A stretch of DNA of 64,000 nucleotides from Odiellus spinosus (lineage: Eukaryota > Arthropoda > Arachnida > Opiliones > Phalangiidae): the NCBI GenBank assembly GCA_963920705.1, contig OY987233.1:12821459-12885458 (forward strand), in the 5' to 3' direction. Shown here piece by piece: positions 4,858-61,850 of the stretch. The translations under genes were made by a program, and so were the position numbers. The notes beneath the pieces were generated by a model. It saw nothing but the letters and a program-made list of their open reading frames with translations, had not been told where the DNA came from and ran no database searches. The number at the start of each line of letters is the position of its first letter. Position 1 is the first letter of the stretch.

Positions 4858-7418
4858 ATGAACGAACGGGAATTAGCGGAGAGAACTCTCCTGGAGCGAG
4901 AGCTGATCATTCGAAATTACGAGATGGGTCGGGAAACGGCCACAATTGATCCCTGGGAAGATCCCAAATTTGAAGTTTATCACGTCACTGATCGATACGG
5001 TTTTTTGCAGTAAGTTTACCACTTTATAATAATAAAAAAAATAAATTAACTCTCAAATTAATTATCAGCGATCATCGTCTGCCGGATAAACTGACGGCCC
5101 ACGAAGCCAAAGTTCGAGAAATTGAAAACGAAAGATTGAACAAATGGTTGAAAATGTTGAAAAATTGGGACAAATATTATCCTGGAGATAAAGTGGGTCC
5201 TAAATCTATTTTTTTGTTTCGTTATAATGAATGACATTTGGCCTTGATCGCTTCGTCATAGCCCAGTTTTCGTTATATTGTTTTTTTTTTTTATTATTTT
5301 AGGTGAGACGGAGGATCTATAAAGGAATCCCCAACGCGGTTCGAGGGGAAGTCTGGTGCAGATTACTCGATGTGGGACGAGTCAAATTGGAACAAGAGGG
5401 AAAATATGAGGTTCCTGTTACATAGTTTGTCTCTTTTAAGGGAGCTTTTCAATATATTTTTTGTGTTTGTGTGTAGGAGATGTTACGGCAAGCTCGTTTG
5501 ATGTCTCCCGATATCAGGCAGATTGATTTGGATGTCAACAGGACTTACAGGAATCACATCATGTTCAGGGAAAGATACGGCGTCAAGTAAGAACCGGACT
5601 AAAAATTAATTATTTTTTATTTAAACGTTTCATCATATTTTTCTCTCGATTTAAAAGGGATTTAATAATTTCGTATTTGAATTTTTCAGTAGATACCTTC
5701 TTAACCTTCATCCTTGATTACCCGTTTTAGGGTTCCAACAATCCTAGTAAAAACTATTGTAAATTTACAAAAACCTATACGCAGTACTTAATCCTAAATT
5801 TAAAATAACTCTGCAGTTGGTACAACCTTTACCGCCAAAATTCCTAGTTTTTATTACTGAATTTTCAAATCCTTCAATGCATCCACAGAAATTAGTTTTC
5901 CCAATGTTGTATGAACCCTGAAAAAATTCTCAGTGTTTCCCCATTGTCTTTTAAAGTATTAAGTTTTTTTTTTTTTTTTTTTTAATTTCCCCTTGAAAGC
6001 TCTTAATTTTTTTTCTTTTTGTTTTTTTGCTTCTTTAGACAACAAGCGTTGTTTCACGTCTTATCGGCCTATTCCGTTTATAACACCGTAAGTTGGAATA
6101 AATTAGGTACAATAAAACCTTGTTATATTATTGGGAAGAAAAATTATGACAAAAACCCTCTCTATTTAAGACGGGTCGCTAATTAGAGGAATTGTAAATA
6201 ATCTAGTGTTTTAATTATTTTGGTCTATTTTTAGGAAGTGGGTTATTGCCAAGGGATGAGTCAAATCGCGGCGCTCCTACTGATGTTCATGAACGAAGAA
6301 GATGCCTTTTGGGCCATGTCGGTACTTATGAGCGACGAAAGACACGCCATGCACGGTAGGAACCATCGATAATTCATTTATATCCTCGATTTCGGAGATT
6401 TCAAAGTAATTTTATCCTTCGTCGTCGTTATCAGGGTTTTTTATTCCCCAGTTTCCGAAACTGGTTCGATTTCAGCAACATCACGATAAAATCCTTTCCA
6501 AGTTCCTACCCAAGTTGAAGAAGCAGCTTGAAAAGTATTATAACGAGACAGTAAACCTTTTTATTTAATATTTAACCATGTTTTTTGCGTTTCATTTAGA
6601 TACGATATCCATTCTAGTTTGTACACTTTGAAGTGGTTCTTCCAGTGTTTCCTGGATCGAGTGCCGTTCACGTTGACGCTGCGTCTCTGGGATATCTACA
6701 CGTTGGAAGGAGAAGTCATTCTCACCGCTATGTCTTACACGCTCATGAAACTGCACAGGAAAACCCTCCTCAAACTCAACATGGACGACCTCATTGAATT
6801 CTTGCAGGTCAGAAATACAAAAGGGGATCAGGGAGGGGGAGGAGTGGATATACTCGAAAGAAATTAAACTTTGTAAGCGATCGGGAAGGGCTCCTACAAA
6901 TCTGGAAAAACCTGCAAATATTAGAGAAATACGTCATTGAGAAAAATCAATTCTAAAATTGGGAAAAAATCTAGAAAATATTAATTGCAGGGTTCCCATC
7001 AAAATCCGAAAATAAAATATGGAAAAAAAGACTTTTTACTGAAAAAAATTGGTTAAAATAGGGACCTTAGGACTAAATATAGAAACCAAATTAATAGGGA
7101 CCAATAAAGAGCCAAATGAAATGTTATCATGACTTATTTAGCGTAGTTAGTGATCTTTTTGGTGCCACATTTCAAAATATAAATCTAAAGATGAAGAATA
7201 TTGCGAAATATTCATTGAAATAATCTGGAAATATGTGTATGGGGCAAATTGGTCTCTTCAAAATGAAGCATAGTAAATTAAGATGAGGCTACAAAATGCG
7301 AGGAACAAAACAGAATGCGGTAGAAAATGTAACTGCAAAATAGATTAATTTTAAAAACAAATTTTTGTAATATTACATTTCTATAAGTTTTGAATTTATT
7401 TTTCTTAATTGAACCATT

Positions 7419-12831: not shown

Positions 12832-15800
12832 ATGACCACCAACCAGGATTCGAGAGAGACGAATGTAGGTACTGGGTAATTTGGAAACGGTGATAAAATA
12901 TTTGAGACCAGTTAATGATCTGGCATTAATTGGTTTTAATCAATATTGTTATCAAAGTTCCCAAGGTCACGATTAGCGCGTTAAAAGTTGAAACGCTTTT
13001 TATTTTTTAACAATGTGCTTAGGAAAAACCCATAAAATATTGTTGTATTTTTAATATCATCTTACGAGGGAACGAAGTTCGAAATTGGTCCCCTTATAAG
13101 ATTTATTATTTTCTTTCTGTTTTAAAATGTTTTTAGGGTTTCGCTTGCTTTTTAATTTTAGGTCGAGATTAAGTGAGTTTTAATAATCGTATTTTCCTGT
13201 TCTTTCAGCTTTGGTGGATGAAACCGGATTTTTTTAACTGTTTAAAAACAGTTGGCGTTACCGAAAATAAATTAACTATAAAACAGGTACGTTTATTGGT
13301 TTAATAAGATAGTGAAAATAGTTTAATATTGAATCCCTTGATGATTTTTGACAATTGTAGATTATTGAGTATTTGAATAAATATATATTGTTGAATAAGT
13401 TGTTCAATTTGAACGAGGGAATCCCACCTAAGACTTTTTATCTGGGTGATGATCCTTTGTCCAAAGTACTGGGCGTCAAGCAATTCACCGTTCCAGAGTT
13501 GAAGATACTGTTACCCTATCAAATCATCGCCGTAACAAGCAAAAAAGACCATAACGGTAAGTTTTCAAGTTAAGTAATCAAATTTTAGCTAAATAAATTG
13601 TATGTAATTGATGGTTTTACCATCATTTGTGACAAAAATTAGGTCAAATACCAATAATTGCCATCTAAATTAGATTAAATATTTATGATCACATTTGGTT
13701 AAATTTAATATTTTGTCACCAAATTTGGTAAAATTTAAGAGTGTGTGATCAAATTTGGTCAGATTAAACATCCTGTGATCAAGTTTAACAGCTTATGAGC
13801 AAATTTAGTCGAGTTTAACTTCTTGCCATCAAATTTGGTCAAATTTAACATCACCTGATCAAGTTTGGTTAATTTAAAATTTTGCGATATAAATTAGGTG
13901 AATTATAATTGCTTTCAAAACTAAAGTATTTAAATTCTATTAACACGATTTAAATAGTTTTAAATTTAACTTGTGCATATTTTGTTTAGGTCAAAATTCT
14001 AAAAGCGAAGAGGACAAAAATGCAATATTAATAAAACGGAAACTAAATGGTAATTTCTCTCGTTTAAAGGAACTTCTCTGGGTGAATGCTGTTTTTTTTT
14101 TTTCTTTAATTTGTGAATATCCGCGCAGATGAAGAGGCGGGTGATCTTAGCGACCCCAAGAAAGGTCGGCGTGAAGAAGAGGAGTTTTTCAAATACGGCA
14201 CATTTGTTGTTCCGCGGGCTCCCACTTATTTCAGTGGCGACGAGACCGATTATAGCGTGCAAAGCTTGGAAACGGAGTACGTCCGTGATTCGGGTGATGA
14301 CATCCTTTTGTATGATGGCACGCTCAGCCTCCAGGAATATCACAATGCCAGGAACAATATTCTTTCGTCGGGTGATGAAGGCGGAATTGAATACGAAGTA
14401 GAATCAGCTTCCAGTCTCAGTTCAGGATGTTCCGATACCAGCAGCGATGAAGAGGTACTCTTTTCTATTGATGAAAAGTATTCGTTTTTAATGTATATCA
14501 ATGACGAGTACTCAGTTTTTAATGTATATCAATGACGAGTACTCGGTTTTAAATGTATATTAATGATGAATTCTCATTTTGATCAAAAGTTATTTTTCTA
14601 ATCAATTGCTGATGAAGTGTACTCGTTTTTATCAATTATTTATGATGAGTACTCGTTTTTATCAATTATTTATGATGAGTACTCGTTTTTATCAATTATT
14701 TATGATGAGTACTCGTTTTTATCAATTATTTATGATGAGTACTCGTTTTTATCAATTATTTATGATGAGTACTCGTTTTTAACTTTTTATCAATTATTTA
14801 TGATGAGTACTTGTTTTTATCAATTATTTATGACGAGTACTCGTTTTTATCAATTATTGATGAAGATTACTCGTTTTTATCAATTATTGATTAAGGGTAC
14901 TTGTTTTTATCAATTTGTGATAATTACATGGTTTTCATTGTTATTGTGACATTTGAACTTTTAACATCTCTGGGGCATAGGCAATGTATTATTGGGGGCG
15001 TTTCTGGCTGAGCATTTTAGGTTTTTAACACTGGATAGGTCGTCATATCAGAATAAGTGATAGGAGCACTAAACAAATTGTTTTATAAAGTGATATTTTT
15101 CATAAATAAAACCATACTACTAGTTTATTGTTTTCTAATTTCGTCATCCACCAAACAATGTGGTAGCAATTATTAATGCTTAGTACTCGATTTTATTAAT
15201 AAGTGATGAATTTTGATTATTGTTGACAAAAAATCATTTTTCTTGATTATAGATGGCAAATACCTACTTTTTTTTTTTTTTTTTTATTGGAAAATGCACT
15301 AATAAATACTTCATTTTTGTGTTTGTTTGGTTTGATTGTTTCAGGATATAGTTTGCGCTGCTCTGGTGATCACTCAAGACGATAGCGATATGCCATTCTG
15401 GGCAGATGAAAGTGACGAAGATACCATCGACCCCGAGCTAACTCTGGCTGTAAGTTTATTATTCCTATAATTGGGGAGATTTACGTTAACCGACTCCCCA
15501 CTAAATAACGATGGTTATAGACTATTTAGGACCTGGGGAGTTTAGAAAAATTAATTAAAAAAATCTCCAATCAGCGGAAGTTTGAGAAAAAAGAATTTGA
15601 AAATTTGAAATTCCCATGCTAAAATCCCATAGAATGCGCCATAGTTTGGGTTGGGTTAGGTTGGAATCTATGGGATTTAACATGCAAACTTCAAATTTTG
15701 AAATGTGTTTTTCTCAAACTTCCAATGGTTGAAGATATTTTTAAGTATTGTTTCTGAACTCCCCAGGTTCTAATTAGTTCAAAACCATCGTTATTTGGTA

Positions 15801-18800
15801 GGGGGTCGGTTATCGGAAACCTTGCCGGCTTGCCCTATAATTTAATTTTATCATGGCTATTGTCGCTTATTGATTGGTGTTGGTTGGCTTCGCAGGACAA
15901 ATGGTCATGTTGTCACTGCGGAGGTTTGAACGACCCTTTGAGTCGTTTTTGCGGTCGATGTTGGGACATGAGGGTGCATTGGCTGCCCGAGAAGAAAAAA
16001 CATCATCCTCCAACCAATATCAAAAAGAAGCAGCGTCCTCCCAGGCCTGTTAACAAGGTCCATCCTCTTCTCAAGGTGAGAGATAAACAGAAACCGAGAC
16101 AATATTTTCCATTGTCTCGCTCCTATTGTAATTTTTGTTTGGTTTTTCTGGCATTTGCGCTCGTTTAATGATAATTTTCAGAGGGTGGCACGCGAGTAAG
16201 ACTGCGACTCTGAGAAACCCATAACTATTATTTCTCCAACATTTATTCAATATCAAAATCGTTTTTTAGAACAACGTTGTTTTAGGCCCAATTAGTTCCA
16301 GATGAGCGATTAAGCTTTTAGTTTTTGAAGAAGAATGTGGGACCATTAACTCTAAAAATTACGCTAAAACCTTGTTATAACGAAATATCGCTTACGATAA
16401 CTGCCTTTGTTATTTCCCTTTGTTATTGCTTATAACAAATTACATTTAAATATTAACCTTGGCCAATCACTCAAAGCCAAGACTCAGAAAATATTTAAGG
16501 GAAAAAGCGTAGTGCTAAATACAAAACTTAGTTTATGTAATCAATGACCTTGACCAATCACTTTTTCTCTGCAAAGCCAAGGCATAAAAGCTACAAGGAA
16601 AAAGCCCTAGTTATAAGGAAATTTTTCCTAAATTGAACCCCATATGCTAGTGACCTTTAACCAATCTTTCTGTCATCTACAAAGCTAAGACTAGAAAAAT
16701 AAACTTTAAGGAAATAGACCTAGTTTCTAGCTTTATCGGATATACTCTGGTTACTATATGACCAATGACATTCACTAATCAGTCTGTCCACCGCAACGCC
16801 AAGGCTTAGGAACTATAATGAAATTGGTAGGGCTAGTCTTTACTATATAGCCGACAAATCACTGGTTATAAGAGAATTTGTCTAAATCCTACATTTTATG
16901 ATTCTTTCCTTCGAAATTTCAAAACAACAAGGTTTTACCGTAGTTGACAATGATTCTTCCTGGCTGCTGGGTTAGTTGTTCCATTGTTCACTATTTGATC
17001 ACTTATTTTCAATGGATCGTATCGTTTAATGAATCGCGAAATAGAGACCATTTCTTTTCAATTGGTCTTGCTACATGAAATAAGCGATCGATTGATCTTG
17101 ATGCTGTTTCTTTTCAATTTTCGATCAAATTTGGATTTAATTAAGTATACAGTAACGTAATTTTGTTTCTGTCAGTTGTTACATTGCAAACTGCATTCCA
17201 TTTTCTACTTCCTTTGAGGTCAGACGTTGAAAATATTTTCATACAATCACCACGACAAAAGTATAAGTTAGATGAGATTTAATTACGTTTTTAATTATTA
17301 TATTGTAACGGTTTGTGCGAAAAAACTAATCAAAAATGAATTTTTAAATAAATAAGGGTTGGATTGTTTGGAACTTAAATCCATCAGAAATTTTAAAAAA
17401 AGGCCAAGGGTTTAAAATTAAAAATATATGCGGAATATTTATTTACTATGTTCCAGAACAATAATAACTTAAGATTTGACGTGTGATGGAAACGGATTAC
17501 AAATAATTAAGCTTGATATCTGCGACTAATTACACGTGATTAAACTCCTCCGGAAATGGTAAATAAAGGCAAAAAGTTTAGAAATAATACTCAGAATTTT
17601 TATTCCAGATTAATAATAACTCGAGTAGACAAGTTGTATTTATGTTTTGCCAGGAGATGGAGATGGAAATGGATTACAAATAATTGAGCGTGATTTCCCT
17701 GAAAAACGAACGAAACATGGACGAGTCCATTTCACAGGATAGAAAGCGAGGGGGTAGTGGGTTTACAAATTTTTTTTTTGGATCGAGCAAACAACGCATT
17801 AACAGGTTGTAGGATCGTGATGCAAGTAACCGTTACAATATTAATAATTAAACTTTGATTTCAAACTGAAGTATTGGTGACTGGTAGCTTTGACTAATTT
17901 TGATTAGTTCATTTTCCATTTTGTTCGATAGAAAGTCAGTTAAGTCCACCTCTATTTCTTATTTCAATAATTGGTTTCCAACCCCATTATTTAGTTTTAG
18001 AATGGTTTTGAATTTGGCCAACAGTGGAGGTTTCGCGTTTATGTTTAGTCCAATTTTGTTTCCTGAAAACATTCAACGAGGATCCAATCATCGGCGTAAT
18101 TTTTCCCGTTCCTATACGCCGCTGCTCGCACTTGCGCTAGAAATTGCGTATAGTTTGAGTTCGTAAGTTTTTAATAGCTCGGCGATGAAATCAAAGACTA
18201 AATTTCCGTTCAAACGTAATCAGGCCACTCAATATAAAAAATGGAATAGCTTGATTAAAATCGGAGAAAAGAACAATAAAGGTTTCATTGTCATTCTTTC
18301 AAAAGCTTAGGTGCGCAAACTGTACTCGTGATTTTTACAAAGTCACTCTGCAAAACAAATTAGGACTCCTTTTACAATCAGACTGTCGTAAAACAATCGT
18401 TTAGTAGATTTACAATTAGTTCCAGTTGCGCCCTTAAATTTAGAATTTAATAACTTAATATATACAAGTTAAATTTCAGTATTAAATTTACGCGATACAA
18501 ACTTTTTTAAATATTATTGTACATCTTAAGCCTTGGCCTGTATTATATTAGTTACTAAGCCTTGGTTGAAATTTTATACCTTGGTTTCAGTTTTATATAT
18601 TTTAATGCCCTAGTTGAAATTAATATAATTTTTAAGATTTGGTTGAATTTTTTTAAACCTTGATACAAATTTTAATATTTTTAAGCCATTGCAGGAATTT
18701 CATTATATTTCTTCTTAAGCCTTGGCCCAAATTTTAATTTTTTATTATTTAGTATTTACGCAATTTTTGTGAAGCCTCGGCCCAAAAAATCTGAGCTGAA

Positions 18801-19290
18801 AGATTGTTTATACTCTAGTTAGTTTGTATTTGGGGTCCTAAATCCAAATTTGGTTGTTGTCCACCTCTCCGATTGTATCTCAATTGTCTATAATCGTTTT
18901 CAGTCTACAAAATACGAATCTGCGGACTTCAGTAGTCCGAACTGGCAAGAAACGCCAGAGAAAATAAACTCTGGCGAATCTTTACCATCAACTTCGCAAG
19001 ATCAATCCCAATATGAGTTCTCCTCGCAAGATTCGGGGATTTCGCCAGCTGAGAAGTCCGAAGTTAACTCTATCGAAATACCGGACGGAGCTGTCAATAA
19101 TAGCGACAAAATCCTTCCGAATTGCCCCATTTGTCAAGTTAATCCCAAAACGGGGATATTTATTCATGGCAATACCTCGCACCAATATTGCTGTTATAAA
19201 TGCGCTAAAATAATTCAAAAATCCCGCCAGAAATGCCCAGTTTGTCGCAGAAGCATTCTCAAGGTGGTGCGGAACTTTCTCGTCTTATAA
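12832..19290 (+). CDS. MDM2: MDM2 family E3 ubiquitin ligase
   Basis: Eight exons: 12832-12864, 13209-13286, 13361-13556, 13990-14049, 14129-14454, 15345-15449, 15896-16075, 18904-19290. They make 454 aa (human MDM2 has 491), and all junctions are in phase. The p53-binding SWIB-like domain (about residues 14-98) includes FFNCLKTVG, IIEYLNKYILLNKLF and FTVPELKILL. An acidic centre (about 190-262) matches the human order and ends PELTLADKW. The RanBP2-type zinc finger has ligands Cys271, Cys274, Cys285 and Cys288. The C-terminal RING has Cys400, Cys403, His414, His419, Cys423, Cys426, Cys437 and Cys440 and ends at the usual distance, with the hydrophobic tail needed for dimerisation. The family ubiquitinates p53 and itself. 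A basic stretch KKKQRPPRP follows the zinc finger. The exon 1 donor GTAGGT is chosen because it keeps phase. Poly-A signal at 19,315. Confidence 0.95.
13620..13880. repeat. Degenerate minisatellite in MDM2 intron 3
   Basis: Around eight diverged units of about 30 bp share ATCAAATTTGGTCAAATTTA. They lie between exons 3 and 4. Divergence between units suggests an old array. Confidence 0.8.
14459..14935. repeat. 30-bp minisatellite in MDM2 intron 5
   Basis: Five perfect 30-bp copies (core GATGAGTACTCGTTTTTATC) run at 14,641-14,790, with diverged copies on both sides. The array begins directly after the exon 5 donor, so the first unit overlaps the end of the exon. Two frames stay open only because the unit length is divisible by three. 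Confidence 0.95.
15483..15822. mobile_element. About 340-bp foldback element in MDM2 intron 6
   Basis: The left end TTAACCGACTCCCC pairs with the right end GGGGGTCGGTTA, and pairing continues inward (TAACGATGGTT with AACCATCGTTA, GGAAGTTTGAGAAA with TTTCTCAAACTTCC, AAATCCCATAGA with TCTATGGGATTT). Imperfect arms of about 150 bp fill almost the whole intron. No coding capacity is seen, so it looks like a non-autonomous foldback element. Confidence 0.85.
16440..16830. repeat. Degenerate ~110-bp tandem repeat in MDM2 intron 7
   Basis: About four diverged units each contain a form of TTGACCAATCAC, then GCAAAGCCAAGG and AAGGAAA. They lie in the 2.8-kb intron before the RING exon. Confidence 0.65.
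17395..17735. repeat. Two-copy ~170-bp direct repeat in MDM2 intron 7
   Basis: The blocks at 17,395-17,545 and 17,566-17,735 share an AAAGGCAAAAAGTTTA-like start, an AATAATAACT segment and the segment GGATTACAAATAATT. The copies are diverged. Confidence 0.6.
18530..18790. repeat. Degenerate AAGCCTTGG repeat in MDM2 intron 7
   Basis: Irregular units begin with AAGCCTTGG and continue into an AT-rich segment such as TTGAAATTTTAT. Spacing is uneven, so this is an old array just upstream of the last MDM2 exon. Confidence 0.55.
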
Positions 19291-35843: not shown

Positions 35844-37962
35844 TTATAATTTACATTTGTAAAGATTAGTATTATCTGTTGGTTTTTTTGTACCATCGAT
35901 ACTATCCGCTAACGGTGTCTCGCTGGTATCATCCTCGAGTTGGGAACCTTTCCCAAATCGTACAAACGCGTCTCGGGCCGGTCGCTCTTGTAGATGTTCT
36001 TTGCGAGCCGTGATAATCCATGGGTCCCGGTTGCGATCCCCCTTGCCATCTTTCTCGCTTGGTTGGCACCATCTGATTAGTTTGGGTGCCACTATGGCTG
36101 GCAGCGAAGCCGTTAGATCAGTGTTAACTCGACGCCTCTTGCGTCCGAAACGGATAAAGTTTTCTCCAGCTTTCTTTTGTTGTTGTTCTCGGTTGATACG
36201 AAACGGTATCGCTGGATTTCCATATTCCCCAATTCCGATTGGTTTTGATAGATCTTGAGCTAAATCTTAAATTTGTAAGCGATATATTACGTCAAATCTC
36301 ATTGTAAATAATCTTGAAATTTGATAGGGAACAGATTAGGTTTAAAATGTCAAGAGAATATCAATGAATTTTAAAATTATGCCCCCAAAATGTCCGGGAA
36401 TTTGGAAATTGAGCCAAAAAGATCAGGGAATTTTGAAATTTCTCCCTAAAATGTCGAAATATTTTTAAATTGCCCCCAAAAGTCCAGGTAATTTTAAATT
36501 GATGCCCAAAAGGTTAAGTTAAATTATGGAATTTTAAAAATGCACCCCCAAATATCAAGCCCTAATCAGGGAATTTTAAAAATGTGCCTTGAAGATCAGC
36601 CAGTTATCAGTGAATTTTAAAATTGCTAATAAATGTCAGGTTAGTTTGAAATTGCTCTTAAAATCAGGAAATTATAAAAAGAACCCCAGAACGACTGGAA
36701 AGGTCAATGAATAAGCATGGAGTTTTAAAATTATCCAGAAAAGGTCATTAAATATCAGGGAATTTTAACACAATGCCCCAAAAATCAGGGAATTTTAACA
36801 CGGTGCCTCAAAAGTCAGGGAATTTTAACACGGTGCCTCAAAAGTCAGGGAATTTTAACACGGTGCCCCAAAAATCTGTGAATTTTAATACGGTGCCTCA
36901 AAAGTCAGGGAATTTTAACACTGTACCTCAAAAGTCAGGGAATTTTAACACTGTACCTCAAAAGTCAGGGAATTTTAACACTGTACCTCAAAAGTCAGGG
37001 AATTTTAACACGGTGCCCCAAAAGTCAGGGAATTTTAATACGGTGCCCCAAAAATCAGGGAATTTTAACACGGTGACCCAAAAGTCAGGGAATTTTAATA
37101 CGGTGCCCCAAAAATCACGGAATTGTAACACGGTGCCCCAAAAATCAGGGAATTTTAAAATTGCTTCCCAACTATAAAATGACCCCCAAACGGTGAGGGA
37201 ATTTTACAATCGCTCTTTGAATGTTAAGCAATAATTGGGGAGTTTGAAAATTTTACTTTTAAAATGTCAGGGCACAAATCCAGGAAATTAAAAACTCGGC
37301 CAAAATGGAAAACTGATTTTTAAAGCCCCATAAAAATCGACTTCTTTTCTTGCTTAGCAGACGACGTTGACCATAAATTGTACAATCAATTTATCAAAGC
37401 AAAGCTCTGTGGATAAGGTAAGATAATTTTAAAGGGACAAATTCTAGAGCAGCTAGGGCCTTTAAAGGCTCTGAAATTTCCCACTTTAAAATGATCTTCC
37501 CTTAATCACACTTAATCCCTTAACTGTGCAGTTTGTTATGGTCAACGTCGTCTGCTAAGCTAGAAAAGAAGGCGTCTTTAAAGGGGGTTTAAAAATCGCA
37601 GATAGTCCCTTTAAAGTGACAGGGAATTTTCGAATAACGCTTAAAAGTTTAATGAAATATATCAGATAATTTTTTTAATTGGAATCAATTTGTTACTTAC
37701 TAGCTTTACTTTTCAAAATTTCTCCAAATATGAGATTGACAATATCGTTAAATCCCTTATTGTTTCGTTTTCTATTGGTGGTTGTGACGGGATCCCTTTC
37801 GAGGTCACGTTGCTCTTGACCGTCGCTGCCCATTTCCAGCTCTTCTTCGAAAACGGGGTATTCGGCCCCCAAATTCTTCTCTAAAACGATGGGTGGGGAC
37901 ATCGAGCCCGTTCGTCGCGTATTCAAAACCAACAACAAATAAAATAAGTCGCTTAACTTCAT
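35844..37962 (-). CDS. Putative RFamide-type neuropeptide precursor
   Basis: Two exons on the minus strand: 37962-37701 and 36265-35844. They splice in phase (GCT A|GTAAGT to TTAAG|AT) and give 227 aa. The N-terminus MKLSDLFYLLLVLN resembles a short signal peptide. A tribasic RKR lies in exon 1. Exon 2 holds KK-AGENFIRF-G-RKRR (residues 118-132), which predicts the amidated octapeptide AGENFIRFamide with Gly as amide donor. A second candidate, DAFVRF-GK (186-193), has only a single basic residue after the Gly. RFamides act as secreted ligands of G-protein-coupled receptors. I do not know which named family this is. An alternative acceptor 6 bp further in is also in phase. A poly-A signal lies at 35,787-35,792, about 50 bp past the stop. 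Confidence 0.75.
36360..37170. repeat. 30-bp minisatellite in the RFamide gene intron
   Basis: About 13 regular 30-bp units (core AAGTCAGGGAATTTTAACAC then GGTGCC) run at 36,775-37,165. Older irregular units begin near 36,360. The unit derives from the dispersed CAGGGAATTT repeat. The long open frame over it (36,773-37,177) comes from the 30-bp period and is not a gene. Confidence 0.95.
37337..37573. mobile_element. Family D foldback element
   Basis: The left arm has CTTAGCAGACGACGTTGACC and the right arm GGTCAACGTCGTCTGCTAAG, a 20-base perfect pair, with further pairing around CTTTAAAG. This is the only complete copy of the element whose halves are scattered at 2,183, 33,783 and 42,565. It lies in the RFamide gene intron, 130 bp from exon 1. 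Confidence 0.85.
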
Positions 37963-39174
37963 CTTTGATAACTGCGCGTTGTCGAGATTTAATTACTTCC
38001 CAAATACTTTTAAAGCTAATTGAAGTTATTCTACAATTATAATTACATTTATACTTGACGTTAAATTAATTATTACCCATCGTTATATCGTTTTGTAATT
38101 ACGTAGGGGTATGTCAGTAAACTAAGGCTAGGTCTTTATCATACCAGGTCCTCGAGGTAATTGAGATATCTAAGCTATTGTACTTGTCTTATATAGTGTA
38201 GACAATGGATAGTTGGTCCCAATGGTAGTTGTCAACTGGTAAATACGGTACGGGATGCCTTATACCACTGTTTTTCTGGTGATATGATCCAGTAGGGTTT
38301 CGCGATATGTATTCGATATTTTAACTTTCATTTTTTTCACGTCGGTTGTTCTAAAAGCCCCCTCCCTTCAAGAATGTATCAGAAAGTTCCATACGGTTTA
38401 CAGTAACGCCAGTAAGGTATCTTCCAAGTGAAATGAATTTGGCGTCGTCTGATTGGCTGAGAGCATCCCCGGCATCCCGCTAGTACTTTATATAAATGCT
38501 ATGAGGAACGTAGAAGCTTCGCGTTTCCTACTACCGTATTAACCCCTCTGGGAAACGCTAAGTACATTGTTGGAAATACCTTCCCTATTTTGGGTTCGCT
38601 ACTTGACCGAGCTCGTACGAAATTGGTGGTTCCTCGGAGACTGATCTTAGGTACGGTCGGTCCATCAGTGAAATTAGACATAAATATCGAATATGGTTAT
38701 CAGAATGATGTCTTAAGTGTTTTTGACAATCTCGCCCTGTTTGAGAAACGATAGAAAAAACTTGCAGCCAGGCTGTACAGCGTAGCCGATGTTATAGCGG
38801 ATTGATATAAAATGTTAAACTTCGTAGGGAATTAAGTAGTTCGCGTCGAGTGTCGAGGTACTGGGGCCTGCGTCGCGTCTTGAAGGTATCTTTATTATTT
38901 TATTATACCTATAGTGGATGGGTTAAAGTTTCTCAGGGATGTTGTTTTCTCGCTATCTTTACTTATCTCTCGGGGAATCATCGCGAATGATAGGGAGTAA
39001 AAATTGAGGGGGGTCCTACCATTATGTTAAGGATCAGACAACTAAGTGACCATCCATCATATTACTACGCCTTATCTCGAGCAGATGAGCTTCGGAAGAA
39101 AGCATCAGTCTCAGGCGATGATATTACGATGACCCCCTTGGAATTTAATTCAGAACACTGGTCACTTTTAGCTT

Positions 39175-43285: not shown

Positions 43286-44005
43286 CCTTGGTATCGATTT
43301 AAACCGTTTCAAAACATTTCGCTGGATCAGTGTGAACGTGAAACCGTCTTTTCTCGAATCGATTTGATTCGATTTCTCGAAACTGCTTCGTGAACCAGTT
43401 TCATATCGATTCGGTTTCAACAACCGATATATGAAGCTTCAATAAATCGATTTGTAAAGATAAGGTACGATTTGAAACGGTAGAATCAAATCGATATTTA
43501 GATCGTCAGGAATCGTTTTAAACGTCAAGTGTTCACGCATTATCTTTATCAAGGAGGATCAGAGAAGGAGAGGAAATGTGGGGCTGCGTTGAGTTAGAGA
43601 GAGAAGAGCCAACCTCCCACTCGGGTGGAAAGGGGGGATAGGAAATTCTCGAGGTAAACTGTTGTCACGTGGTCGCTAGCTAGCGCGTCTCATAAAGGAT
43701 TCGTTTTACCCACGCGACAACATTTTACCACGAAACGTCTCTACCCCCGTTCTCCCAGAGTGGGATTTTAGGCCGACGCAGTAGGAACCGCGCCGTCCCC
43801 ACATTTCCTCTCCTTCTCTGATCCTCCTTGTCTTTATAAATCGATTTATCGGTTGTTAAAACCGAATCGGTATGAAACTGGTTCCCGAAGAGAAATCGAA
43901 TCAAATCAATTCGAGAAAACACGGTTTCCCGTTCGCACGACTATATAGCGAAACTTTCTGAAACGGTTTAAATCGATTCCAAGGCTTAGTATGAACGCGG
44001 CTACA
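43286..44005. mobile_element. Family A element split by a younger element
   Basis: The left part (GCCTTGGTATCGATTTAAAC) and right part (GAACGCGGCTAC at about 44,005) belong to one family A copy. A 281-bp element sits inside it at 43,550-43,830. Its intact sister site is at 48,668-48,705. Confidence 0.75.
43550..43830. mobile_element. 281-bp inverted-repeat element with 7-bp target duplication, copy 1
   Basis: It begins CAAGGAGGATCAGAGAAGGA and ends TCCTTCTCTGATCCTCCTTG, a perfect terminal inverted repeat of about 35 bp. It is flanked by TCTTTAT at 43,543-43,549 and 43,831-43,837. The interior has CTAGCTAGCG and two TTGTCACGTGG-like segments but no open frame. It is non-autonomous. Confidence 0.95.
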
Positions 44006-45050: not shown

Positions 45051-47483
45051 TTATCCTTGTCGAATGGGCTTTCTCATAAGTCTCCTTCTTCGACCAATCA
45101 CCTCCTCGGGTTTCCTCCAAATGGCGCAACCGCACGAGCCCCTGATAGCGATGACGCTCCAACCAACATCTCCGCTTACCGTGATCACTTTGCCGTACGT
45201 CCAAATGAAATTCTCTTTGCAACGAGAATTCCAAACCTATAAGACCGCCAATTAAAGAAAAATTAAAGTAATTAACTCCGATCTTAGATTAAACGGAAGC
45301 CGTCTGGCCTATACTTACGTTTTTGTTGATTCCTCGGCATTCTATTAAGGTTCGGGCCGAGTAGTAGGCCGAGTGGGCGGAGTCTAATCCCTCTAGACCC
45401 GAACTAGCGCAATAGGTTTCGAAAAAGTACTGGTTAACGACCGTCCCGTTGACCGGAATTCTTTGTAAGACGGTCAGTCGGTTCCCGTAAGGGTCTAAGG
45501 CCTCGGATCGAGCCACCCAATCGCTGACACTCGGGCAGACGTCGTGAGCCACTTCCGGTCCGCTGAAATAGTCCGACCATCGACTTCCGTCTTTATGATC
45601 TTCCAATTGGTCTAAAGGATCGTCTCTGATAGACGCGTCCGACTCGCGAGGGAGGCTTTCCGGTTCCGGGTAGTAACCCGAACGCCGCCTTCTAAAGTTT
45701 CAAAAAAAGAACGTGAAGATGGTCATTATCTCGCGCGAGGAATTCAAATTGGCTAGTTTTTGTCAATGAATAATAAATGAAATCAACCGGAAAAAGTTAA
45801 AAATATAAATGAATATTAATGAGGGAAAATCAATAGTGTATCAAATCAGGGAGGTGAAAGGGACATGCCAACCGCGGCCGTGGGGCATTTGCCCCAGCTC
45901 CTTTTTTTACTTTAGTAGGCTTTGTCAATTCGAGGGGTGGGATGGCCCCGCTTTCTCCCCCAATTCCCTAAAAACGTTGGCAACGTCCCGGAGGAGATTA
46001 AGTTAAAAATAGATGAAATCAAAGAGGTGAAAATTTTTAAATATGTATAATTTACGTGTTAATATTAAATTTAGTTAGATGAAATTAATCAGTGATAATT
46101 AAAAATAGATGAAATTAATCGGTGACAATTAAAAACAGATCAAATTAATCCTAGAGCAATTAAAATAAAACAAATTAATCCTAGTTCAATTAAAAACAGA
46201 TCAAATTAATCCTAGAGCAATTAAAAATAATACAAATTAAATCAGTGACTATTAAAAATAGATCAAATTAATTCTAGTGGAATTAAAAATAGATCAAATT
46301 AATTCTAGTGGAATTAAAAATAATACAGATTAATCATTGACAATTAAAAATATATGAAATTAATCAATGACAATTAAAAATATTACCAATTAATACTAGT
46401 GCAATTAAAAATAATACAAATTAATCCTAGTGCAGTTAAAAAATACAAATAATTAGTGGCGATTAAAAATAGTACAAATAAGTCAAGGACGATTAAAAAT
46501 AGTATAAATTAATCAGTGACAATTAAAATAGATCAAATTAATTAGTGATAATTCAAAATAGATGAAATTAATCAGTGGTAATTAAAAATAGATCAAATTA
46601 ATCAATGGTAATTAAAAATGGATGAAAACAATGAAAAGTTGAAAATGACATTGGACTGTTAAAAATTAACCAAGCCGTAATTAAAAGTAGATAAAATTAA
46701 CCAAGCCGTAATTAAAAGTAGATAAAATTAACCAAGCCGTAATTATAAATAGATAAAAATAATCCAGCCGTAAAATTGGATTAGATAAAATCACGAGGAA
46801 CAGTTGAACATAGATAAAAACCTCGATGAAAAGTTTCAAATAAATTAAATTATATTCAAGACTAATTCAAAATGTGCCAAATTTTGAAAGTGTTATTTTG
46901 CGTAAACGTGAAAATGTAATTTGAACCTTTTGTTAATGGTGGCTTGTCTGAGGTAAGCTTTCCGGGTAACTCTGTACAAATCCCTGGTAGTGACGGTATA
47001 ATTATTGGCCCATGAAGGGTCAGAGGGCATCAAAACCGGAAACGAACTAGCCGAATTTAGTTTGGGCAACGCCGTCGGTTTCCGGGGCGAAAATCTAACC
47101 AATCCCAATCGGACTGGGACTTTCAGTTGACGGTACTCGAAACGATGACTCGGACGCCGTGGATGACTCGTGTCGCCGTCCTCACTTATCGAATTAAATC
47201 GATTCCGCCATTTAATTATAGCGTTATTGACGAGGCTCTCTTCCGATTGGCTGTCGAAGGACGACCCCTTCTCCGATTGGCGGTTTCCGCCGGAAGATTT
47301 CCAAAGAGCTCGTAATCGTTCCAAGAACGTGTCGGCTTCTTCGACGACGTCTCGTTGTTTCGAATTTGGGCCTGCTAAAGTAGCCCCTCTCACAACCGTG
47401 GCGGCGCTGTAAGACGAAGCTCCCGATTGGAGGATAATCAAACCTGCGTAGAAGCTTAATTGGACGGGATTCTTGAAAAGCAT
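45051..47483 (-). CDS. Prepro-neurotrophin (NGF family)
   Basis: Three exons on the minus strand: 47483-46927, 45691-45319, 45236-45051. They make 371 aa with all junctions in phase. A signal-like start (MLFKNPVQLSFYAGLIILQS) opens a prodomain that ends at a polybasic INKRRRR, a furin-type site at residues 186-189. The mature part has the six knot cysteines Cys238, Cys280, Cys304, Cys316, Cys345 and Cys347. Family blocks are VCPSVSDWV, NGTVVNQYFFETYC, CRGINKNVWNSRC and SCGCAIW; compare NGF CRGIDSKHWNSYC. Spacing matches NGF except for about 14 extra residues between Cys2 and Cys3. The family is secreted as dimers that signal through Trk and p75 receptors. NGT at 267 is a possible glycosylation site. 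The exon 1 donor (AG|GTTCAA) is weak but preserves phase and the basic cluster. Confidence 0.94.
46050..46760. repeat. Degenerate ~30-bp minisatellite in neurotrophin intron 1
   Basis: More than 20 diverged units of the form AATTAAAAATAGATCAAATT followed by AATCAGTGAC or AATCCTAGTGC run through the intron. The last three units (46,665-46,745) are a separate near-identical subset with AACCAAGCCGTAATTAAAAG. Confidence 0.9.
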
Positions 47484-48264: not shown

Positions 48265-48556
48265 CAAGAAGGTTCAGATAAGGAGAGGAAAAGTGGGAAC
48301 GGCGCGGCTCCTACTGCGTCGGCCTAAACTCCCACTCTGGGAGAACGGGGGACAGACGGGGGTAGAGATGCTTCGTGGTAAACTGTTGTCACGTGGGTAA
48401 AACGAATCCTTTATGAGACGCGCTAGCTAGCGACCACGTGACAACAGTTTACCTCGAGAATTTCCTATCCCCCCTTTCCACCCGAGTGGGAGGTTGGCTC
48501 TTCTCTCTCTAACTCAACGCAGCCCCACTTTTCCTCTCCTTATCTGATCCTTCTTG
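48265..48556. mobile_element. 292-bp inverted-repeat element with 7-bp target duplication, copy 2
   Basis: Same element as at 43,550-43,830 but reversed. It starts CAAGAAGGTTCAGATAAGGA and ends TCCTTATCTGATCCTTCTTG, flanked by GTTGTAT at 48,258-48,264 and 48,557-48,563. The two copies differ at scattered bases and in internal length (292 against 281 bp). Confidence 0.95.
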
Positions 48557-53929: not shown

Positions 53930-55268
53930 AATACTAATAATGAGTCATTAAATACTAATAATGAGTCTTTAATTACTAATAATAAACCATTAAATACTAA
54001 TTGTGAATTATGAATTATATAATATTACTATGAATTATTTATTACTAAATATGAATTAAATATTACTAAATATGAATTAAATATTACTAATTATGAATTA
54101 AATATTACTAAATATGAATTAAATATTACTAAATATGAATTAAATATTACTAATTATGAATTAAATATTTAATACGAATTAAATATTTAATACGAATTAA
54201 ATATTTAATACGAATTAAATATTTAATACGAATTAAATATTTAATACGAATTAAATATTTAATACGAATTAAATATTTAATACGAATTAAATATTTAATA
54301 CGAATTAAATATTTAATACGAATTAAATATTTAATACGAATTAAATATTTAATACGAATTAAATATTTAATACGAATTAAATATTTAATACGAATTAAAT
54401 ACTTAATACGAATTAAATATTTAATACGAATTAAATATTTAATACGAATTAAATATTTAATACGAATTAAATATTTAATACGAATTAAATATTTAATACG
54501 AATTAAATATTTAATACGAATTAAATATTTAATACGAATTAAATATTTAATACGAATTAAATATTTAATACGAATTAAATATTTAATACGAATTAAATAT
54601 TTAATACGAATTAAATATTTAATACGAATTAAATATTTAATACGAATTAAATATTTAATACGAATTAAATATTTAATACGAATTAAATATTTAATACGAA
54701 TTAAATATTTAATACGTATTAAATATTTAATACGAATTAAATATTTAATACGTATTAAATATTTAATACGAATTAAATATTTAATACGAATTAAATATTT
54801 AATACGAATTAAATATTTAATACGAATTAAATATTTAATACGAATTAAATATTTAATACGAATTAATTATTTAATACGAATTAAATATTTAATACGAATT
54901 AATTATTTAATACGAATTAATTATTTAATACGAATTAATTATTTAATACGAATTAATTATTTAATACGAATTATTAATTATTTAATACGAATTATTAATT
55001 ATTTAATACGAATTATTAATTATTTAATACGAATTATTAATTATTTAATACGAATTATTAATTATTTAATACGAATTATTAATTATTTAATACGAATTAT
55101 TAATTATTTAATACGAATTATTAATTATTTAATACGAATTATTAATTATTTAATACGAATTATTAATTATTTAATACGAATTATTAATTATTTAATACGA
55201 ATTATTAATTATTTAATACGAATTATTAATTATTTAATACGAATTATTAATTATTTAATACGAATCAT
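53930..55268. repeat. 18-bp / 21-bp AT satellite
   Basis: Three successive arrays: 21-bp units with AATATTACTAAATATG (about 54,030-54,160), about 40 copies of the 18-bp unit AATTAAATATTTAATACG (about 54,160-54,960), then about 14 copies of a 21-bp version with an added TTA (about 54,965-55,265). The 18-mer contains the palindrome TTAAATATTTAA and a single CG. Copies are nearly identical, which points to recent homogenisation. Confidence 0.98.
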
Positions 55269-61459: not shown

Positions 61460-61850
61460 CGAATTCCCATATGAACGAAATCCCATTCGGCCGAATAGCT
61501 GCAATTTCTAGCCCATTGGGCTGGGAAAAAGGTTTCTTCCCATTCGACCGAATGGGCTAATAAATTCAAAAATTTAATTCAATCGAATAGAAGCATACGC
61601 ATAATTATATATGTAATACGTTGAATGGAACTTTTGTTAAGCTAGGTTCTTCGTACGTAAACGGTAGTAAAAAAAAGTACAATAATGCAGTTTTAAATAA
61701 TATTTATTTGAAAGGTTAGGTTAGGTTAGGTTAGGTTAGGTTATACCTTGGAAATACCCCAAAAATTTCAAAAACCGCCAAAGCGCGGGTTTTTCGGTCG
61801 AATGGGATTGGGTTCGGTCGAATGGGAATTCGGTCAAAAGGACCCAAAGC
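61460..61850. repeat. Inverted blocks of the CCATTCGACCGAAT type
   Basis: GACCGAATTCCCATATG, CCCATTCGGCCGAATAG and CCCATTCGACCGAATGGG on the left are matched by TTCGGTCGAATGGGATTGGG and GGTCGAATGGGAATTCGG on the right, forming a foldback that encloses the GGTTA tract. Confidence 0.7.
61714..61742. repeat. Telomere-like (GGTTA)6 tract
   Basis: Six perfect GGTTA units (the last base at 61,743 completes the sixth). TTAGG is the ancestral arthropod telomere unit. The tract is internal and short, so it is a taxonomic hint and not a chromosome end. Confidence 0.9.

Follow-up and report, generated by a model that had tools for sequence, protein, structure and literature searches.

The arachnid Odiellus spinosus carries, on the minus strand of the 64,000-nucleotide stretch analysed here (contig OY987233.1; hereafter the window), a predicted three-exon gene for a 371-aa protein of the NGF/BDNF/NT-3 family, in which the second and third cysteines of the knot stand 24 positions apart, against 10 in NGF. 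We consider it highly probable that the locus is a neurotrophin gene whose product would act as a secreted, dimeric Trk ligand with a tolerated extension of its L3 loop, the segment between Cys2 and Cys3.

Gene model and precursor layout

Joining 47483-46927, 45691-45319 and 45236-45051 in frame yields 371 codons with no internal stop. Recomputation returned the same coordinates, exon count, protein length and cysteine spacings as the first-pass annotation had given. The features of the locus are as follows.

46927..47483, minus strand: exon 1; Met, signal-peptide-like hydrophobic stretch VQLSFYAGLIIL, prodomain, N-glycosylation site NYT, weak donor at the end
45692..46926, minus strand: intron 1; 1235 nt, tandem repeats inside
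45319..45691, minus strand: exon 2; most of KRRRR, 48-residue N-terminal arm, Cys1, Cys2, long loop, Cys3, CRGINKN
45337..45411, minus strand: codons from Cys2 to Cys3 inclusive; 75 nt, 23 residues between the cysteines
45237..45318, minus strand: intron 2; 82 nt, GT..AG, phase 0, between Cys3 and Cys4
45051..45236, minus strand: exon 3; VWNSRC (Cys4), Trp99-equivalent, Cys5-x-Cys6, basic C-terminal tail, stop

The exons have a GC content of 0.50, 0.54 and 0.50 (exons 1, 2 and 3), whereas the introns are at 0.27 and 0.35. The exon 2 donor (AAC/GTAAGT) agrees with the consensus at 8 of 9 positions, and the acceptors are TTTAG and TATAG, the latter preceding exon 3. The donor of exon 1 (AAG/GTTCAA) is weak, agreeing at 5 of 9 positions, and the junction of exons 1 and 2, like the splicing as a whole, is a prediction from such signals. 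Four GT dinucleotides with the required phase occur towards the 3' end of exon 1 (46926, 46977, 47043 and 47070); use of the one at 46977, which agrees at only 3 of 9 positions, would yield a protein of 354 aa instead of 371. Since all four candidates lie within the prodomain, the cysteine knot is the same whichever is chosen. The choice alters the end of the prodomain and the cleavage site: the K of the polybasic KRRRR and part of its first R are encoded by exon 1, and the rest by exon 2.

The predicted precursor comprises a signal peptide, a prodomain and a basic cleavage site, as judged by simple hydropathy and with KRRRR depending on the weak exon 1 donor, together with two N-glycosylation sites (NYT and NGT). 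The knot cysteines are residues 238, 280, 304, 316, 345 and 347, giving spacings of 42, 24, 12, 29 and 2; the corresponding values for human NGF are 43, 10, 12, 28 and 2. The protein has the six knot cysteines with terminal CxC expected of the NGF family, and the conserved Gln is also present. The NGF-like blocks QYFFETYC, CRGIN and VWNSRC are there, as noted at first pass. Cleavage at KRRRR would leave an N-terminal arm of 48 residues before Cys1, compared with 14 in NGF, and the C-terminal tail extends 24 residues beyond Cys6, compared with 10 in the NGF sequence used.

Much of intron 1 is taken up by a minisatellite with a unit of ~30 nt (46076-46627) and by 31-nt repeats (46662-46773). A MITE-like element is present in two copies of opposite orientation, one on each flank of the gene, at 43550-43750 and 48356-48556. 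After reverse-complementing, these arms are identical at 194 of 201 positions, and the left copy carries inverted repeats of its own.

Assignment to the neurotrophins

The whole protein matched a single Pfam family at E up to 10, namely NGF (PF00243), with 77.3 bits (E=1.2e-21) against a curated cut-off of 27 bits. The mature region scored 79.5 bits (E=2.5e-22) and exon 2 alone 44.9 bits (E=1.5e-11), while exon 3 alone fell under the cut-off at 21.7 bits (E=2.2e-4). Other matches were sub-threshold: PF08354 with the mature region (11.9 bits, cut-off 25) and PATR with exon 1 alone (12.3 bits, cut-off 27). Human NGF and human NT-4, run as controls, scored 185.9 and 157.7 bits on PF00243, compared with 77-80 for the Odiellus protein. 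Judged by its PF00243 score, a chance match to the NGF family is ruled out.

A sequence search of the PDB at E up to 10 returned 18 matches, 17 of which are named NGF, BDNF, NT-3 or NT-4; the 18th is labelled Ovulation-inducing factor, which we take to be NGF. Over three blocks, one with a 1-residue gap, 35 of 73 positions are identical to human NGF. His75, Tyr79 and Arg103 of NGF, which are Trk contacts in the NGF-TrkA structure, are replaced by Val, Arg and Ala, and on this comparison the vertebrate Trk-contact positions are only partly kept. The residues listed as separating neurotrophins from Spaetzle include Trp130, Ile/Val133, Asp18 and the absence of Pro13 (Wilson 2009, PMC2772990). By numbering mapped by hand, the equivalents of Trp130, Ile133 and Asp18 (W99, I102 and D30) place the Odiellus protein on the neurotrophin side. 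It departs once from the neurotrophin family motif, in the form in which the vertebrate consensus is quoted in the same paper, carrying N at a [DE] position; this motif is not required of invertebrates.

A placement of the domain with Spaetzle within the superfamily, and signalling by way of Toll receptors, is scarcely credible. Spaetzles have the same knot, and human NGF itself scores weakly on the Spaetzle profile PF16077 (23 bits), human NT-4 giving 14.2 bits. Moreover, a four-sequence MAFFT alignment, gappy and with Cys2 misplaced, puts identity to fly Spaetzle at 28%; in that alignment, however, identity reaches 38% to NGF and 36% to NT-4. PF16077 was not matched by the whole protein, the mature region or the exons at E up to 10, a search in which the HMMER filters may conceal weak matches, whereas the Drosophila Spaetzle knot, a member of the same knot superfamily, scored 107.5 bits on it and gave no match to the NGF profile. 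The NGF-type Trp, Ile and FFET block are all in place, and Spaetzle is absent among the 18 PDB matches. A Spaetzle identity was rejected on the unmatched PF16077 and the positive fly control. The first-pass annotation had called the protein a neurotrophin and proposed a profile search to separate it from Spaetzle. The domain proved nearer to the NGF profile, the controls kept the two profiles apart, and the neurotrophin assignment stands.

The Cys2-Cys3 segment is probably translated as read

The loop has a GC content of 0.56 and a GC3 of 0.60, resembling the remaining coding sequence, against 0.27-0.35 in the introns. Its spacing of 24 falls outside the vertebrate values (10 in NGF, BDNF and NT-3; 17 in NT-4), although spacing here is not a strict criterion of the family. 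PDB alignments gave 10 for venom NGF, BDNF and NT-3, and human NT-4 (identical to PDB 1b8m_B) gave 17. Relative to this set of vertebrate NGF, BDNF, NT-3 and NT-4, the Odiellus loop is longer than that of NGF by 14 residues and than that of human NT-4 by 7. The contrast with a value of 10 originally drawn for NGF therefore holds for venom NGF, BDNF and NT-3 but shrinks once human NT-4 is considered.

A long loop of this kind could arise from an error in the model, with a short intron or other splicing leaving a spacing like that of NGF or NT-4. The loop does end in an acceptor-like TTAATAG and contains GT dinucleotides. We enumerated GT/GC-AG stretches of at least 20 nt lying wholly within the loop, and three were in frame and free of stops. 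Their removal leaves spacings of 17, 3 and 5, never 10, and the candidates measure only 21-63 nt. Excision of one 21-nt stretch would produce the spacing of 17 found in NT-4; however, no animal spliceosomal intron is known to be that short. The GC content of the loop likewise sets it apart from the introns. An intron within the loop was judged unlikely, as no candidate restores the NGF spacing, and a modelling error of either type seems very improbable. Because its composition is exon-like and no internal candidate of at least 20 nt would give a spacing of 10, we take the loop as translated; it is very probably real coding sequence. The enlargement of the Cys2-Cys3 segment noted at first pass is borne out at a spacing of 24, with a hidden intron unlikely.

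Decay of the gene, with the loop as a product of relaxed drift in a failing gene or pseudogene, is also highly improbable. The weak exon 1 donor, the mismatch in the family motif and the replacement of several vertebrate contact residues might be read in this way. Against this, 371 joined codons run without an internal stop, and the six cysteines, the basic cleavage site, both N-glycosylation sites and the strong exon 2 donor have all been retained.

A probable tolerated extension of the L3 loop

Reading the locus as a functional neurotrophin gene, we infer that it would encode a secreted pre-pro-protein of the NGF/BDNF/NT-3 family. The signal peptide would be removed, a furin-type protease would then cleave after KRRRR, and the cysteine-knot domain would dimerise. 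The dimer is expected to activate a Trk receptor, and probably also a p75NTR-like receptor, on neurons. The lengthened L3 would represent a lineage-specific extension at the pole that holds the N- and C-termini. As a Trk/p75 ligand the product is most likely unremarkable: it would be secreted and dimeric, with a surface loop of greater length.

The neurotrophin family, to judge from NT-4, already tolerates an insertion between Cys2 and Cys3. Human NT-4 (1b8m_B) resembles the Odiellus protein in having a segment longer than that of NGF in the same place; its segment is glycine-rich and 7 residues shorter. NGF, BDNF and NT-3 share the knot and the core blocks with the Odiellus protein but differ in their spacing of 10 rather than 24.

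Accounts of the L3 loop differ. A review describes L3 (NGF 59-67) as highly conserved, assigns it together with the C-terminus to a second p75NTR epitope, and cites activation of TrkA by an L3-derived peptide (PMC8200100). In another paper, contrary to that review, the length of L3 is given as variable. The review's statement counts against a freely varying loop; the spacings of 10 and 17 among vertebrate neurotrophins favour variability over high conservation. The first-pass annotation had located the extra residues at the receptor surface. The p75NTR epitope and the TrkA-activating peptide in the review (PMC8200100) support that placement as far as it goes, yet the sources disagree, and a long L3 need not alter recognition. 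Most simply, the longer L3 would be a tolerated extension, with a role at the receptor possible.

A stronger proposal is that the long arm (48 residues), L3 (23) and tail (24) together form an enlarged, lineage-specific receptor epitope. It is suggested because the N- and C-termini and L3 meet at one pole in NGF; we regard it as rather unlikely. Were it true, engagement of a Trk or p75NTR-like receptor would be altered.

Comparison with known neurotrophins

Wilson 2009 (PMC2772990) describes a neurotrophin in Daphnia, tick ESTs from Ixodes and Rhipicephalus, and sequences resembling neurotrophins from Capitella, Helobdella and Lottia; the search described there gave no fly orthologue. Lauri 2016 adds a neurotrophin from Platynereis and cites Aplysia. 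Additionally, a crab transcriptome includes a transcript matched to a shrimp protein that bears the name neurotrophin, its subtype unspecified (PMC5279790), and in an eLife study the family is taken to occur throughout the bilaterians (PMC7535936). The view that true neurotrophins are known from only some protostomes is therefore a fair one as far as these accounts extend, with no orthologue found in flies and reports from Daphnia, two ticks, annelids and molluscs. Because Daphnia, tick, annelid and mollusc members have already been reported, a further protostome neurotrophin is unsurprising.

Arthropods supply some of the nearest counterparts. The Daphnia pulex protein Dappu-NT is likewise described as a multi-exon precursor with a signal peptide, prodomain, cleavage site and six-cysteine knot (PMC2772990); it is predicted with 6 exons, 4 of them in the knot, whereas the Odiellus gene has 3, of which 2 encode the knot. 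The tick neurotrophins (Ixodes and Rhipicephalus) are arthropod members too, known in that paper from ESTs. Vertebrate neurotrophin precursors, unlike that of Odiellus, are described as contained in one major exon (PMC2772990). The single predicted knot intron of Odiellus, between Cys3 and Cys4, fits the multi-exon invertebrate type.

The protein is of a kind already known from water fleas and ticks, and its loop lies at a site of known length variation. No published comparison of loop lengths in invertebrate neurotrophins was found among the literature matches listed, going by titles and abstract openings. Pattern searches for relatives in prokaryote genomes and viral contigs gave 119 and 6 matches, respectively, 0 of which were confirmed by tblastn, as expected for an animal gene.

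Sampling of the neurotrophin family is patchy, and the locus contributes one more well-formed invertebrate gene to it, along with a natural test of the length that the L3 loop can tolerate. If the elongated pole contacts a receptor, it would illustrate how recognition between neurotrophins and their receptors has diverged outside the vertebrates.

Other features of the window

Rfam and tRNA scans of the whole window returned no matches. A LIN7 neighbour was sought among 116 hand-chosen ORFs of the window, drawn from 214 that passed an entropy filter and were 56 aa or longer, and no such Pfam family appeared at E up to 0.01.

A RabGAP-TBC exon lies on the plus strand at 6544-6867 (PF23436, E=3.8e-11; PF00566, E=3.7e-10); it resembles USP6NL. 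Exons of an Mdm2-like E3 ligase occur at 15758-16168 and 18823-19290 on the same strand, encoding a RanBP2-type finger and a RING whose best matches are Mdm2 2c6a (E=3e-8) and Mdm2 7ahy (E=1.3e-12), respectively. MDM has been reported in its complete form from molluscs, annelids, chelicerates and myriapods, and in a partial form from a few hexapods and crustaceans (PMC5543598).

Two minus-strand ORFs, at 35847-36266 and 37693-37992, probably belong to one FMRFamide-like precursor, a joining that we infer. The first has a signal-peptide-like start and GTAAGT at its end. The second encodes two peptides ready for amidation, with FIRFGRKRR and FVRFGK at their ends, and scored 17.2 bits (E=0.0065) on Pfam FARP, for which the cut-off is 15.5. 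Genes encoding two FIRFamides are mentioned for Daphnia and a copepod (PMC12035899). Judged by sequence content only, the Mdm2-like and FMRFamide-like genes, with the TTAGG run described below, would point to an arthropod and perhaps to a crustacean, an invertebrate deuterostome being less likely.

An 18-nt tandem array of ~64 copies with 98% matches spans 54048-55265 and produces long repetitive ORFs on both strands. Finally, a perfect 31-nt run of TTAGG, a 5-nt unit that serves as the telomere repeat in many arthropods, is located at 61713-61743; TRF counts 6.2 copies.
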